A stretch of 20,011 nt of DNA from a virus, in IMG/VR virus record IMGVR_UViG_3300047470_000008, positions 1 through 20,011 of that record; one strand, written 5' to 3'. This document shows, in pieces, positions 13,907 through 20,011 of this stretch. The notes under the pieces were generated by a model that was not told the DNA's origin, ran no database searches, and saw only the letters and a program-made list of their open reading frames with translations. Every line of letters begins with the position of its first letter. Positions within the stretch are counted from its first letter, which is position 1. A program made the position numbers and the translations under genes.

Positions 13907-14163
13907 ACATCACCGCTCAGAACACCTTCACCACGCCGATCCTCATCCAGGCAGCCAACAAGTTCGACATCACGGTCAGCGGCACGTTCGTCGCCACCGT
14001 GGTCCTCCAGCGCTCCAAGGATCAGGTTACCTGGCTCGACGTCGAGACCTTCACGGCCCCGGTCGAGAAGACTGGTGACGCCGGCTCCGCTTGGTACTTC
14101 CGCATCGGCGTGAAGACTGGTGGCTTCACCTCTGGCACGGCTGTCGTCGACCTCTTCGACTAA
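13903..14163 (+). CDS. Small beta-rich phage protein of unknown function
   Basis: The product has 86 residues from the GTG at 13903, in a GTGA overlap with the small terminase. It has no Cys, no signal peptide and no membrane helix. The alternation in FDITVSGTFVATVVLQRS...TWLDVETFTAP...AWYFRIGVKTGGFTSGTAVVDLF predicts a small beta sandwich. The words GTFxxTVxLQRS, DVETFTAP and RIGVKTGxxTSGTA recur in phage structural or fibre-adjacent proteins, so a virion decoration or tail accessory role is plausible but not shown. It occupies the place of the T7 spanin gene 18.5 but lacks the lipobox or membrane anchor of a spanin. Its TAA overlaps the ATG of the SGNH gene by one base (TAATG), suggesting the two work together. 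Confidence 0.72.
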   Translation: MNITAQNTFTTPILIQAANKFDITVSGTFVATVVLQRSKDQVTWLDVETFTAPVEKTGDAGSAWYFRIGVKTGGFTSGTAVVDLFD

Positions 14164-16613
14164 TGGCAACTGTCACCCGCTCGGTCCTGCGGGGCGTCCT
14201 TCGGGACGTCCTGTCGGGGGCCACAGCAATAAGTTCTCCCACGCTGCTCACCTATGCCTCTCGCATCGCCCAGCTCGGGGACAGCATTACGCAGTACGGC
14301 GCGGCTCTCTCGACCTCTCTGCTCAGCTTCAGCAACGCTGGCGAACTGGAGACGGCAGCCTCCCTCAAGGGCAACTTCAACATCGACATCTGGGGCTCCG
14401 ACAGTGCCACTAACCCTGGCTGGTTCGGTGGCGACATGGGCATTGCCGGCCAAACACTCACCGGCATCGGGCTCCGCTTGCCTGACGCTATCGGCCTCAT
14501 GCCTGACGCGCTCATCATCGCGGGCGGGACCAACGACAACGTCGGCAGTGGCACCGTGGCAGCAACAGCCGCAGCCTACACTGGCATGGCGACCTCGGCC
14601 CACAATGCCGGCGTCAAGCACGTCTTCATCCGCTCGATCTGGCCGAAGGGTCCGACCCAGAGCGTTCCCTCTACGCCGTCCGATCAGCGAGCCTACAACG
14701 CGCTCCTGAAGGCGTTCTGTGACGCGAACCCGACGTGGTGCCACTACGTCAACATCTTCGACGCGGTGACCAACGCTGACGGCACCCCGAAGACCGGGAT
14801 GTTGAACGCTGACGATCTGCACCCGTCTGCCCTCGGTGGCTACACGGCTGGCACTGCCATGCTCGCGGCCATCGAAGCAGTCATGGACAACACCAAGAAC
14901 TCGTCCTGGCTGGTCGACAACTTCTGGGCCACCGGCAACATCATCACCTCCGGGTCTCTCCCCGGCACCGTGGCGGCGTCTGGCACCGGCATCAGCGGCA
15001 ACCTTCCGACCGGCTGGACCGCAGCCCTCTCGGCCACCCCGACGTCGACCGTAGCGTTCTCGCTGGTCGCAAACCCTGACACGGGTGGGCAGTCGCTGGT
15101 CATGGACATCGTTCCTGGCTCTGGCAGCGGCTCTGACATTCTGACCATCTCGCTCCCCTCGGTCACCCCTACGGCCAGCCAATGGTACAAGCCATGGATG
15201 GAGTTCGAGGTTGGCGCGGGCAGCCGCAACCCTCAGCTTGAGATCATCAACGGCGTCGTCAATCCCGACAACCCGGTGACCTCCGTCCGCACCCTGTTCG
15301 GTGATCTGGCTTCGGCCACCACCGGCAAGATCAAGACCGCTGCTCCTCCCATCCAGAGCAGGGCTACGGCGACCGTCCCGAAGATCATCCTGACCATCGA
15401 CCGAGGGCGCGCTGCGTTCCAGACCAAGGTGCATCGCGTCTACATGGGACCGATGGTCGATCCGCACATCACCTGGGGCCAGACTGCGCTTCCGGTGAAC
15501 ACCTCCCTGCCGTCCGTCTCGGGCACCCCAGGCGTGGGCAACGTGCTGACGATCAACCCCGGCGTCTGGACTGGTCTCACCAGCACCAACACCTCGTCGC
15601 AGTCGTTCCAGTTCAACCTCTACCGTGACGGCATCTTCGTCTCGTCGACCTACGGGAGCGGCAACCTGTCGTACACCCAGGTCGCGGCTGATGGCGGCTC
15701 CACGCTGTGGTGGACTGTGGGCGCGTCGAACATGGCCAAGGGTCGCTCGGCAACCTCCCTGTCCCCCTCGGTCAACGTACCGAACCCGGCTTGGAAGTCC
15801 GAGTACGACTTCATCGCTGACACCCACAAGACCAACGGCACGGTTGACGCCAACTCGACGGCCTCTCTGACGACCGTCAGGGCCACCGCAGGGTACGGCT
15901 TCAAGATGCTCACGCTGTTCCCGGCCAACACCGCTCGGCGCACCCCGACTGGCCTCGTGGTCGAGCCTATCGTCGACTACAAGCTGTTCCCGACGCTGCC
16001 TGACAACGCGGGCAACTGGACCTATTCGGCTGCCGTCTGCACCCCTGCAGGAGGCGCTCTGGGTCCAGATGGAACCACGGTGTCGAGCCGGATCGTCATG
16101 TCCACGGCAGCGGGTTACGCCCGTCGCACCGTTGGTGGATCGGCCAACTACAGGTCGGCTAAGGCCATCGTGAAGGGCACGGCAGGCCAACAGGTCGCGC
16201 TGTCCTATACGCCGGGTCAGGCATCGACCCCGAACACCTCCGTCACGCTTACCTTCACGGGTGGCTGGGATGTGATCGACGTGCCGAACATCCTGGCTGG
16301 CAACGCCAACATGGTCTACCAGCTCACCAACGTGGCGGGCCAGTCCTCGCTCACGTTCGATGTCGTCTACGCTGGTGTCGGGCTCTCGGGCACCGGCAGC
16401 GCCACGGCAGCCTTGCAGACCCCGTTCCCGCTCACCACGGCAGCGGCGTCCTCGGCAGCAGACGCGATCTCTCTGACCATCCCGGCGTCCAGCACGGACG
16501 GCGTCTTCACCTTCGACGACGGCTCCAAGCAGCGCGTTGCGGTATCGGCGGGAACCTACAACATCCCGACGGTCCTCAGCCGCCGCCTGATCACTTCGTT
16601 CAAGATAATCTAG
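14163..16613 (+). CDS. SGNH-hydrolase tailspike-like protein (probable receptor/capsule esterase)
   Basis: The product has 816 residues from the ATG at 14163, which overlaps the upstream TAA. A longer reading from 14091 is inside the previous gene. Residues about 33-240 form an SGNH/GDSL esterase domain: GDSIT at 39-43 (Ser41 nucleophile), a block II glycine in GIAGQT, GGTND at 120-124 (Asn123) and DDLHP at 216-220 (Asp216, His219 of the DxxH pair). Residues about 420-550 contain an Ig-like module with LPSVSGTPGVGNVLTINPG...YRDGIF...YTQVAADGG. The remainder is beta-rich, ending ISLTIPASSTDGVFTFDDGS. Such enzymes on phage tails deacetylate surface polysaccharides; that role is inferred. The N-terminal 30 residues may be the virion anchor. 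No spanin genes are seen at this locus. Confidence 0.87.
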   Translation: MATVTRSVLRGVLRDVLSGATAISSPTLLTYASRIAQLGDSITQYGAALSTSLLSFSNAGELETAASLKGNFNIDIWGSDSATNPGWFGGDMGIAGQTLTGIGLRLPDAIGLMPDALIIAGGTNDNVGSGTVAATAAAYTGMATSAHNAGVKHVFIRSIWPKGPTQSVPSTPSDQRAYNALLKAFCDANPTWCHYVNIFDAVTNADGTPKTGMLNADDLHPSALGGYTAGTAMLAAIEAVMDNTKNSSWLVDNFWATGNIITSGSLPGTVAASGTGISGNLPTGWTAALSATPTSTVAFSLVANPDTGGQSLVMDIVPGSGSGSDILTISLPSVTPTASQWYKPWMEFEVGAGSRNPQLEIINGVVNPDNPVTSVRTLFGDLASATTGKIKTAAPPIQSRATATVPKIILTIDRGRAAFQTKVHRVYMGPMVDPHITWGQTALPVNTSLPSVSGTPGVGNVLTINPGVWTGLTSTNTSSQSFQFNLYRDGIFVSSTYGSGNLSYTQVAADGGSTLWWTVGASNMAKGRSATSLSPSVNVPNPAWKSEYDFIADTHKTNGTVDANSTASLTTVRATAGYGFKMLTLFPANTARRTPTGLVVEPIVDYKLFPTLPDNAGNWTYSAAVCTPAGGALGPDGTTVSSRIVMSTAAGYARRTVGGSANYRSAKAIVKGTAGQQVALSYTPGQASTPNTSVTLTFTGGWDVIDVPNILAGNANMVYQLTNVAGQSSLTFDVVYAGVGLSGTGSATAALQTPFPLTTAAASSAADAISLTIPASSTDGVFTFDDGSKQRVAVSAGTYNIPTVLSRRLITSFKII

Positions 16614-16731: not shown

Positions 16732-18444
16732 ATGACCAAGCAGACCCTATCTGCCTCGACCTCGCTGTCGTCGCAGTCAGACCCGCTCCGCGACTTCCGC
16801 AACTTCCTGTTCGTGGTCTGGAAACACCTCGCCCTACCGGACCCGACAAAGGTCCAGTACGACATCGCCTCATTCCTGCAGCACGGCCCGAAGCGCCTCA
16901 TCATCGAAGCCTTCCGTGGCGTCGGCAAATCCTGGGTCACCTCGGCCTTCGTGTGCTGGCTACTCTACTGCAATCCGCAGACCAAGGTCCTCGTCATATC
17001 GGCCTCGAAGCAGCGCTCGGACGACTTCTCGACCTTCACCATGCGCCTCATCTTTGAGATGGAATTGCTGGCCCACCTGAGGCCCACAGCAGACCAGCGC
17101 CAGTCCAAGGTAGCCTTTGACGTCGGCCCCGCCCGTGCGTCCCACAGCCCGTCTGTGAAGTCCCTGGGCATCACCTCGCAGATCGCCGGCTCCCGCGCCG
17201 ACGTGATCATCGCGGACGACATCGAAGTCCCGAACAATTCAGACACCCACCTCAAGCGCGAGAAGCTCTCCGAACAGATCAAGGAGTTCGACGCCGTGCT
17301 GTCGCCGGGTGGTCGCATCATCTACCTCGGCACCCCGCAGACCGAGCAGTCGATCTACAACCTCCTGCCTGACCGTGGCTACGTCTGCCGCATCTGGCCG
17401 GCTCGCTATCCCGACGAGGAACGCCGCGCCAAGTACGGCTCCAAGCTGGCCCCAATGATCGCCCATCTGCTGGATCAGACGCCTGACCTCGTGGGAGGCA
17501 CGACGGACCCTCAGCGGTTCACCGAGATCGACCTGACCGAGCGTGAGATGTCCTACGGGCGCTCAGGCTTCGCCCTCCAGTTCTACCTCGACACCAGCCT
17601 CTCGGACGAAGACAGGTTCCCCCTGAAGCTGTCCGATCTGATCATCATGGGGTTGAACCCTCGCAAGGCCCCGAGAGAGGTCGTGTGGGGCTCCGGTCCC
17701 GAACAGGTGATCGAGAAGCTGCCGATGACTGGGCTCCCCGGTGACCGGCTGCATCGCCCGATCTTCACCGACAAGGACTTCGTCGACTATGACGGCACGG
17801 CCATGTTCGTCGATCCCTCGGGTCGCGGTAAGGACGAGACCGCCTGGGCTGTGGTCAAGATGCTCAATGGCATCCTCTACCTCACCCGCGTCGGCGGCGC
17901 TCGCGGCCACGGCTACGACAACAAGGTCCTCGACGAGATACTGGACTGCGCCAAGGAACAGGGCGTCAACGTCATCAAGGTCGAGCCCAACTACGGCGAC
18001 GGCATGTTCGCCCAGCTCCTCCGTGCCCGAGCCCAGCTCCGCTACCCGGTCTTGATCGAGGACGCTGAGTGGTCGAAGGCCCAGAAGGAAGCCCGCATCA
18101 TCGACACCCTGGAGCCGATCATGAACCAGCACAGACTGGTGGTCGATCCCAAGGTCATCGAGTGGGACTACGACAGCACCGCTGACCTCCCCACCGACGA
18201 GGTGAACAAGTACCGCCTGTTCTACCAGATGACCCGGATCACCAAGAACCGTGGAGCCCTGGCTCATGACGACAGGCTCGATGCTGTTGCCGGCTGTGTC
18301 GCCTACTGGCTGGAATGGATGGCCAGGAACACGACCGTGGCTGTGGAGGTGAGGAAGCAGGAGCTGCTCGACGCCGAACTGGCCAAGTTCATGGAGACGG
18401 CCCTCGGTGGCTCCCTACGGTCGCCCCCTCGGTTCGCCCTCTGA
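16732..18444 (+). CDS. Large terminase subunit (T7 gp19-like, DNA maturase B)
   Basis: This is the ATP-driven packaging motor and nuclease. The product has 570 residues (T7 gp19 has 586). The Walker A-like loop is FRGVGKS (61-67, K66), and Walker B is DVIIADD (157-163) followed by E165. SPSVKSLGITSQIAGSRADVI, RIIYLGTPQTEQ and GFALQFYLDTSLSDEDRFPL each match T7 gp19 almost word for word. The nuclease half has FVDPSGRGKDET (D361), KVEPNYGDGMF (E418, D423) and AHDDRLDA (513-517 region), the acidic residues expected to bind metal. AAGGAG ends three bases before the ATG. It is the last recognised gene before the repeat-rich end region, as gene 19 is nearly last in T7. Confidence 0.97.
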   Translation: MTKQTLSASTSLSSQSDPLRDFRNFLFVVWKHLALPDPTKVQYDIASFLQHGPKRLIIEAFRGVGKSWVTSAFVCWLLYCNPQTKVLVISASKQRSDDFSTFTMRLIFEMELLAHLRPTADQRQSKVAFDVGPARASHSPSVKSLGITSQIAGSRADVIIADDIEVPNNSDTHLKREKLSEQIKEFDAVLSPGGRIIYLGTPQTEQSIYNLLPDRGYVCRIWPARYPDEERRAKYGSKLAPMIAHLLDQTPDLVGGTTDPQRFTEIDLTEREMSYGRSGFALQFYLDTSLSDEDRFPLKLSDLIIMGLNPRKAPREVVWGSGPEQVIEKLPMTGLPGDRLHRPIFTDKDFVDYDGTAMFVDPSGRGKDETAWAVVKMLNGILYLTRVGGARGHGYDNKVLDEILDCAKEQGVNVIKVEPNYGDGMFAQLLRARAQLRYPVLIEDAEWSKAQKEARIIDTLEPIMNQHRLVVDPKVIEWDYDSTADLPTDEVNKYRLFYQMTRITKNRGALAHDDRLDAVAGCVAYWLEWMARNTTVAVEVRKQELLDAELAKFMETALGGSLRSPPRFAL

Positions 18445-18494
18445 CACCCCTCAGGAACGAATAAGGCCTCCACTAGGACTACCCCGAGGGTTCC

Positions 18495-18513
18495 CCCTTA
18501 AGGTGACACCCGA
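18495..18513 (+). promoter_or_regulatory. Candidate phage RNA polymerase promoter, copy 1 (SP6-like core)
   Basis: The element has the form CCCTTARGGTGACACCYGA and contains GGTGACAC, the core of the SP6 phage promoter (ATTTAGGTGACACTATAG). It matches the second copy at 18532 in 17 of 19 positions. The initiation part differs from SP6. The place, after the last late gene, resembles T7 phiOR. No other copy at a gene boundary was found in this window, so the assignment is tentative. Confidence 0.4.
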
Positions 18514-18531
18514 TGTGATCCCCCAGGAAGA

Positions 18532-18550
18532 CCCTTAGGGTGACACCTGA
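18532..18550 (+). promoter_or_regulatory. Candidate phage RNA polymerase promoter, copy 2 (SP6-like core)
   Basis: This is the second copy, 37 bp after the first, continuing as CTGAGAGC so that a G falls where SP6 initiates. Degenerate relatives may lie at about 18622-18637 (AGGAGACACCTAGA) and 18682-18700 (CCTGGGGTGAACCTGAGGG). The motif also contains a CCTTAGGG word of the surrounding cluster, so it may simply be a better-conserved pair of that repeat. Confidence 0.4.
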
Positions 18551-18816
18551 GAGCATCCCTCAGCAGCCCCAGCAGTTCTCCCTGTGGTGCAGCCGAGGGG
18601 TGCCTTGGGGGGACCAGGGTAGTCAGGAGACACCTAGACCACCTCCCTTCAGGGGAACCCATTGGACTGCCTGATGGTGTACCTGGGGTGAACCTGAGGG
18701 GGGTCGGAATATTTGGTACAAAAATGCGAGCGGGTGATCGGATAAGGGGCACGCGCGCCGACCCCCCGTACCCCCTCGTCGAGCCACGCATTAATCCGCG
18801 CCCGCCCGCGTGTGAT

Positions 18817-18842
18817 GCGCGTGGTCTTAGTCGCGCGTGGTC
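18817..18842 (+). repeat. Direct repeat GCGCGTGGTC, two copies
   Basis: GCGCGTGGTC occurs at 18817-18826 and 18833-18842, a 16-bp period. A second short pair, CCCACACAT at 18852-18860 and 18864-18872 (12-bp period), follows immediately and leads into the ATGAGGCGCA array. The function is unknown. Confidence 0.55.
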
Positions 18843-18984
18843 GCACGTTCTCCCACACATTTCCCCACACATGAGGCGCAAGGCCTTACGTTCCAAGGCA
18901 CTGCAAGGGATGACAGAACCCTTAGGCACCATGAGGCGCACCAATCGGGCACCATGAGGCGCACCATGAGGGACATGGAACGGG

Positions 18985-19002
18985 CATTCCAAGGCTGGAA
19001 TG
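18985..19002. other. Palindrome CATTCCA-AGGC-TGGAATG
   Basis: A perfect 7-bp inverted repeat with a 4-base spacer lies inside the array region and is followed by TTTATT. It could be a protein-binding site or a short terminator; the T run is too broken to decide. Confidence 0.45.
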
Positions 19003-19032
19003 TTTATTCCCTTGTCCGCCAATCGGTGGTTT

Positions 19033-19045
19033 TGACAATCTGTCA
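19033..19045. promoter_or_regulatory. Palindrome TGACA-ATC-TGTCA, operator-like
   Basis: A perfect 5-bp inverted repeat with a 3-base centre is embedded in TTTGACAATCTGTCACA. TTGACA at 19032 looks like a bacterial -35 box, but no fitting -10 box lies 16-19 bases downstream, so only the palindrome is claimed. Confidence 0.35.
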
Positions 19046-19250
19046 CAAAATGACCCGGCGATATCCCGCAAGGTTCACCATGAGGCGCACCATAGCGGGC
19101 ACCATGAGGCGCGGCGCTAGGCTGGAAAGGCCAGGGTCACCAATCGGGCACCATGAGGCGCACCAATCCATTGCACTAGCGGGCACATTAGGCCGATCCG
19201 CGGTTATTTCTCAAACTTTCTTTCTCAATGATTTCAGCATGTTAGCCCAT

Positions 19251-19276: not shown

Positions 19277-19303
19277 CAATCATCCCACTTGCGCAATCAT
19301 CCC
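19277..19303 (+). repeat. Direct repeat CAATCATCCC, two copies
   Basis: Exact 10-bp copies lie at 19277-19286 and 19294-19303, a 17-bp period, directly after the T run. A weak bacterial promoter-like pair (TTGCGC at 19289, TATCTA at 19313, 18-bp spacer) overlaps the second copy. No stronger early promoter was found. Confidence 0.45.
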
Positions 19304-19523
19304 GTTCCGGTCTATCTATTGGTCATCGAACGAAGCGGTTCGGGGCGGCGAGGTTCTCGGGTTCCACTAGATCGCATCTTCGGTAACGAGTTTCGGGGCA
19401 CCAAGGGGCTCCATTCTAAAGACTGCCAGACCATCGGCTCTCTGTTCTTTGACAGGCGCAAACACGGGCAAAGCCGCCCTAGCCACTGAATACCGTTTCT
19501 ACCTATCCACTGGCGCGAAAGTT

Positions 19524-19774: not shown

Positions 19775-20011
19775 ATGACCATCCATTCATCATTCTGGAA
19801 AGATCGCCACTCGGCGGTGCGCAATGCATCGATCAAGTGGACAGTGCGAGATAGCAACCGCCAGCGGTGCTACAACTCGGAAAGCAAGCATCTTCATCCT
19901 AAGGCCGGTCGGTTCGCTGACAGGCAAGCGGCCAAAGGGTTCGCTAGGCTCTGCGCAAAGATTGCCATTCGCCACATGGTCGCAACCGGCGTGATTGCTG
20001 ATTACGACATG
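19775..20011 (+). CDS. First gene of the early region, unknown function, partial
   Basis: An open frame starts at the ATG at 19775 and has no stop to the end of the window (79 codons seen). AAAGGGG at 19763-19769 gives a good ribosome site. The visible protein is basic (many Arg, Lys and His) and begins MTIHSSFWKDRHSAVRNASI; later it reads GRFADRQAAKGFARLC. I recognise no family. Its place as the first gene after the genome-end region is where T7-like phages put small early proteins that act against host defences or redirect host enzymes, but nothing in the sequence shows which. Confidence 0.7.
   Translation, partial: MTIHSSFWKDRHSAVRNASIKWTVRDSNRQRCYNSESKHLHPKAGRFADRQAAKGFARLCAKIAIRHMVATGVIADYDM

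Follow-up and report, generated by a model that had tools for sequence, protein, structure and literature searches.

What is an array of short direct repeats doing at the concatemer junction of a T7-like phage? T7 itself carries such repeats, SRL and SRR, and to our knowledge neither their purpose nor the duplication of the terminal repeat in T7-like phages has ever been settled. The question arises in a 20,011-nucleotide stretch of viral DNA, hereafter the window (W in comparisons), which is the late end of a T7-like rhizobial phage close to Mesorhizobium phage Lo5R7ANS (Lo5; large terminase, TerL, 81.5% identical), whose genome encodes an integrase and a T7-type RNA polymerase. An earlier note had read a repeated word between the large terminase gene and the first early gene as a functional analogue of SRR/SRL, a phage-specific tag probably marking the packaging or end-processing region. 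We asked which parts of that reading hold, and whether the word or its position is what matters.

The order of features from terL to the early gene is that of T7: terL, weak CCTNAGG words, left cut, a repeat with four words, right cut, three more words, a putative early promoter, a boxA-like element and the first early gene. The interval described earlier as gene-free shows no conserved gene between the terL stop at 18444 and the conserved early ORF at 19776. A coding sequence over the array was rejected, as the ORF there has 139 aa in the window and 93 aa in the near-identical phage L007, and so is not conserved. L007 has a TerL 99% identical to that of the window, and the window's small terminase (TerS) is 98.9% identical in both L007 and a second relative, L008. 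A large GDSL lipase/esterase-like protein is encoded between the two terminase genes (14160-16613; Pfam Lipase_GDSL_2, E 1.6e-16). A consensus promoter scan made no call at the putative early promoter (19289-19317). In the early leader, TGTTCTTTGACA (19443-19454) resembles the boxA antitermination element of rRNA operons; with at most one mismatch it recurs in the leaders of 12 out of 26 relatives, always on the forward strand, against a shuffle rate of 0.002, and LUZ100 has TGCTCTTTAACA at 647, between its host promoter P2 and terminator T1.

Table 1. Features of the window around the predicted concatemer junction, in window coordinates; a slash marks a predicted cut.
Feature	Position	Strand	Basis or content
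Terminase small subunit, 89 aa	13637..13906	+	PHROG 891 'terminase small subunit', E 2.6e-9
Terminase large subunit, T7 gp19 type	16732..18444	+	phrog_38, E 1.7e-112; Pfam T7 terminase RNaseH-like domain
CCTNAGG words, right-end side of repeat	18449..18699	.	18449, 18533, 18693; weak candidate SRR counterpart, different word
Block A, predicted left-end cut signal	18701..18736	+	kept in relatives; AAAAATGCGAG at 18720-18730
Predicted 285-bp direct terminal repeat	18737..19021	.	6-nt rule on the left, block B on the right, Lo5R7ANS redundancy
Array, portion within predicted repeat	18871..18975	+	words at 18871, 18931, 18954; degenerate word at 18966
28-bp exact duplication, copy 1, within predicted repeat	18939..18966	+	sequence reading
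Block B, predicted right-end cut signal	18997..19033	+	GGAATGTTTATTCCCTTGTCCGCCA/ATCGGTGGTTTT, cut between 19021 and 19022; conserved in relatives
Dyad TGACAATCTGTCA	19033..19045	.	operator-like, just right of predicted repeat, followed by AAAATGACC
Array, portion past predicted repeat, T7 SRL position	19080..19162	+	words at 19080, 19104, 19153
28-bp exact duplication, copy 2, outside predicted repeat	19138..19165	+	sequence reading
Putative early host promoter TTGCGC-N17-CTATCT	19289..19317	+	same hexamers and spacing in L007, L010
First early gene, runs off the window	19776..20011	+	L007 homologue 185 aa; L030 86%, L010 76%, Lo5 61%

The array is unmistakable. Its word, ATGAGGCGCA, has five exact forward copies (18871, 18931, 18954, 19080 and 19153), a sixth with one mismatch at 19104 and a seventh, degenerate copy, ATGAGGGACA, at 18966, in agreement with the at least seven related copies first reported. 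With up to one mismatch the window holds nine matches against 1.74 expected, a number that none of 100 shuffles reached. The only further exact copy in the window lies on the minus strand at 17042, inside terL, and most relatives' records contain the word as a single copy. In L007 (35,117-bp record), six of seven copies fall in its array; counted across the 20-kb window and the 35-kb L007 record, the word is thus concentrated where the earlier note placed it. The repeating unit is GCACCATGAGGC, decayed and 11-12 bp long, with six matches at up to one mismatch in the array and none elsewhere in the window on either strand. The exact duplication that had been noticed, CACCAATCGGGCACCATGAGGCGCACCA, is there too, though its length is 28 bp rather than 27.

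Repetition sets this segment apart. No other 350-bp stretch of the window is as repetitive as 18851-19200, which has 163 direct 8-mer pairs against a shuffle mean of 2.4; the runner-up, a Gly-rich region, has 72. All repeats of the array run in one orientation, and the stretch contains no inverted 8-mer pairs. A structured RNA or DNA over the array was rejected on this last count, on a folding z of -0.54 and on the lack of an Rfam match. A host-derived repeat was rejected as well: of four rhizobial genomes, two have ACCATGAGGCGCACC a single time and the other two, M. loti LU among them, lack it. Scanning viral contigs for CACCATGAGGCGCACCA returned four contigs, among which only that of L007 has several copies. 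Separately, positions 59-127 of L134, from a Rhizobium mongolense genome, match the type II hammerhead ribozyme at 37.6 bits against a gathering score of 37.

Where the array lies relative to the genome ends can be predicted from homology. An alignment of relatives 3' of terL revealed two conserved blocks, A and B. W, T7, Pasto, LUZ100 and Lo5R7ANS each have, over both strands, a single occurrence of the core motif of block A, AAAWWTSYGAG. In T7 and Pasto the motif stops 6 nt short of the terminal repeat's mapped left end; the Pasto ends were mapped by PhageTerm (PMC8407765). Because of this 6-nt rule, we predict the left end of the window's repeat at 18737. LUZ100 is an exception in detail, as its annotated repeat begins 18 nt rather than 6 past the motif and its right edge is unlike block B. 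Long ungapped block A profiles missed the left ends of T7, Pasto and LUZ100, and the short core found them.

Block B holds GCCA/ATCGGTG, and a profile of the rhizobial blocks puts the T7 right end, CCCT/ATCTGTT, in exact register and ranks it among the top few T7 positions. This register places the predicted right end at 19021. The K11 record annotates the corresponding site as its concatemeric junction; the Pasto right end was not found in exact register by block B, owing to a length difference. T7-type left- and right-end signals thus follow terL at a spacing within the 150-300 bp of such repeats, and by homology with the T7 and Pasto signals they predict a terminal repeat spanning 18737-19021. 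The Lo5R7ANS record is itself redundant at its termini: the repeated 246 bp cover the segment homologous to this one, a few bases off at each edge. End signals of the T7 and Pasto type flank the array, so by homology the ends do not lie far from it, the outcome that the earlier note had named as speaking against its reading. One correction to the earlier placement is that part of the array lies within the predicted terminal repeat itself.

With the genome ends placed by homology, the array is a positional analogue of T7 SRL. Like the SRL of T7 and T3 (a CCTAAAG array at the genome's left end), it lies at the concatemer junction, adjoins the predicted repeat next to the right cut and precedes the early promoters. 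The form agrees as well, in that both consist of a short word in direct orientation only, with units of ~12-13 bp, and the window's word is enriched there only. The array straddles the predicted right cut, with four copies within the repeat and three just past it; T7 SRL is likewise partly inside, having three copies within its repeat and eight just beyond. Three differences stand against these likenesses: the word is unrelated, proportionally more of the array falls within the repeat, and there is no SRR made of the same word. CCTAAAG does not occur on the window's forward strand, and the array word is absent from 18445-18736, upstream of the predicted repeat. The three CCTNAGG words on that side occur at ~13 times the motif's density in the remainder of the window, and the motif is denser there also in L007, L010 and Lo5. 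The SRL half of the proposed SRR/SRL analogy is supported, with the array partly in the SRL position, in a single orientation and with a lineage-specific word; the same-word SRR half is not.

Is the window exceptional in this? Pasto carries a left-end array of the same layout, its word recurring in the right half of the repeat and just past it (187, 200, 289, 300 and 324). The Pasto word, GCACCCATCGGC, is similar to the window's and yet different; the Pasto right cut is the canonical CCCT/ATCTGTT, and its TerL is only 54% identical to the window's. The announcement of the Pasto genome does not describe the array (PMC8407765), and our searches of the open-access literature turned up no account of arrays of this kind in phages other than T7. 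We then compared the right half of the repeat plus 150 bp across phages, using known repeats or, as for SP6 and K1F, assumed repeat lengths. Repeats in this segment exceed all of 200 Markov shuffles in T7, T3, gh-1, K11, K1F, Pasto, LUZ100 and W, and 1 of 200 shuffles matched SP6; JG068 and ProddE show no clear excess there. The top words are CCTAAAG (T7 and T3), CCATAGG, ACCTGAG, ACCTACA, GCACCCA, TCTAGTG and GCACCAT, and they are mostly unrelated. Tentatively, at somewhat less than an even chance, we propose that the T7-like junction array is fixed by position and not by word, with arrays of unrelated words recurring across the repeat's right edge. Such position-fixed arrays might be generated when the repeat is duplicated, or a directional repeat of whatever word might be of help at this place.

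A natural first thought is that the packaging machinery reads the word. In phage lambda, cosB comprises several short sites (R1-R3) beside the packaging cut that the small terminase gpNu1 binds specifically. The window likewise has several short sites by a predicted packaging cut, and if its word were such an iteron, a specific binding site for TerS, one would understand why multiple copies in the same orientation sit beside the predicted cuts and are confined to the junction. Unlike TerS-specific pac/cosB iterons, however, the word is not constant among phages with identical TerS. L007 and L008 share the same TerS, and their TerL are 99% identical, but their words differ (ATGAGGCGC and AGGGTGCGC, 7-mer overlap 0.14), whereas L030 keeps the word with a TerS of 84% identity. 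Across 16 phages, once overall relatedness is allowed for, array similarity has no significant link to TerS (partial Mantel r 0.12, p 0.16), and the values for TerS, regulator and integrase, each taken singly, span r 0.10-0.14 and p 0.10-0.16. Several relatives, moreover, lack a clear array and keep the blocks. We consider packaging iterons improbable: because the word differs between TerS-identical phages, the array word itself is probably not what the small terminase reads. The comparison among relatives with similar small terminases that the earlier note had called for thus goes against its tag.

If TerS is not the reader, the lysogeny regulator might be. The words would then be operators for the small transcriptional regulator encoded beside the integrase, and would silence the early promoter past the array. 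Among the closest phages the regulator type does follow the word (92-93% identity in L007, L010 and L030; 52% in L008). L008 and Lo5, however, share a 94% identical regulator and not a word, the predicted terminal repeat takes in half of the array, and over the 16 phages there is no significant link between regulator and array (partial Mantel r 0.10, p 0.14). Operators are, in our judgement, very unlikely.

How the array changes among relatives bears on whether it does anything at all. W, L007, L020 and L025 have a strong array, L008, L010 and L030 a weaker one, and L013, L019, L021, L027 and L028 a very weak one or none, though the cut-site blocks are still recognisable. Because several relatives with both blocks have little or no array, it is dispensable in this lineage. 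The array could be a neutral scar, in which slippage during end replication and repeat duplication makes short tandem repeats that decay without ever having a function. Its patchiness, the change of word between TerS-identical phages and a 12-bp gap between W and L007, which is one unit of an array whose units are ~12 bp, all speak for this, and patchiness, word replacement and one-unit gaps fit a slippage-prone segment. Against a scar, many phages that are only distantly related have excess repeats at this location, and the words are unchanged where the spacers have diverged. Past the repeat, W and L007 agree at 31 of 31 word columns without gaps, and at 72 of 95 spacer columns with 24 gap columns (Fisher p 0.001, the columns not being independent). 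This retention of the word hints at constraint, and it could instead reflect homogenisation of the repeats rather than selection. The array is possibly a scar of repeat expansion alone, a reading that we hold to be doubtful, and we favour over it, without certainty, a junction element indifferent to its word, which is probably what the array is.

The computation supports the array, the conserved blocks, their agreement with the mapped T7 and Pasto ends, the recurrence of arrays elsewhere and their decoupling from TerS. What might such an element do? The T7 junction contains ATCTGTT, a class II signal at which RNA polymerase pauses (PMC11617373). Maturation is reported to start when the paused complex, together with gp3.5, interacts with gp18 and gp19 (PMC3276506). 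By analogy, the conserved ATCGGTGNNTTTTG at block B is likely the counterpart of the T7 junction pause sequence. Late transcription would pass through terL into the concatemer junction, and the phage RNA polymerase would pause at the right edge, at ATCGGTGGTTTT, the putative counterpart of T7 ATCTGTT. Terminase would then cut at blocks A and B, with the array flanking the cutting. The decayed 11-12-bp tandem units fill the right half of the predicted repeat and run ~140 bp past it, straddling the predicted right cut, and would turn over by tandem duplication and conversion. We give an even chance to the array serving a T7-like temperate phage as its SRL-type element at the left end, most likely aiding junction processing or repeat duplication through position and repetition, and not through a word that TerS reads. 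The pause, the exact bases at which terminase cuts and whatever benefit the array brings are inferred.

What T7 shows together is told apart by this comparison, namely conserved cut signals on the one hand and, on the other, arrays whose word can change even where TerS does not. Since their terminases match and their arrays do not, L007 and L008 form a natural swap pair for the role of T7's SRL. How the left repeat is completed is described as still not fully understood (PMC3350473). For some temperate T7-like phages and prophages, the unique left-end motif also makes it possible to predict termini from the sequence.

Several smaller features cluster around the predicted cuts. A near-palindrome, GGAATGTTTATTCC, lies at 18997-19010, 11 bp before the predicted right cut, and takes the form GGAATGTTCATTCC in L010 and L030; GGAATRTTT is present in block A as well, and ATCGG follows both predicted cuts. 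The dyad TGACAATCTGTCA is intact in Lo5 and L011, occurs as variants in L014-L016 and L025 (two variants in L016), has one arm altered in L007 and L008, and is missing in L010, L030 and L009. About 100-350 bp right of block B, L008 and L009 have a short ORF (MDWIAVAFGGLGGVLALAGW... in L009), apparently for a small membrane protein, at the site that the outer half of the array occupies in W and L007; L030 contains a related stretch.
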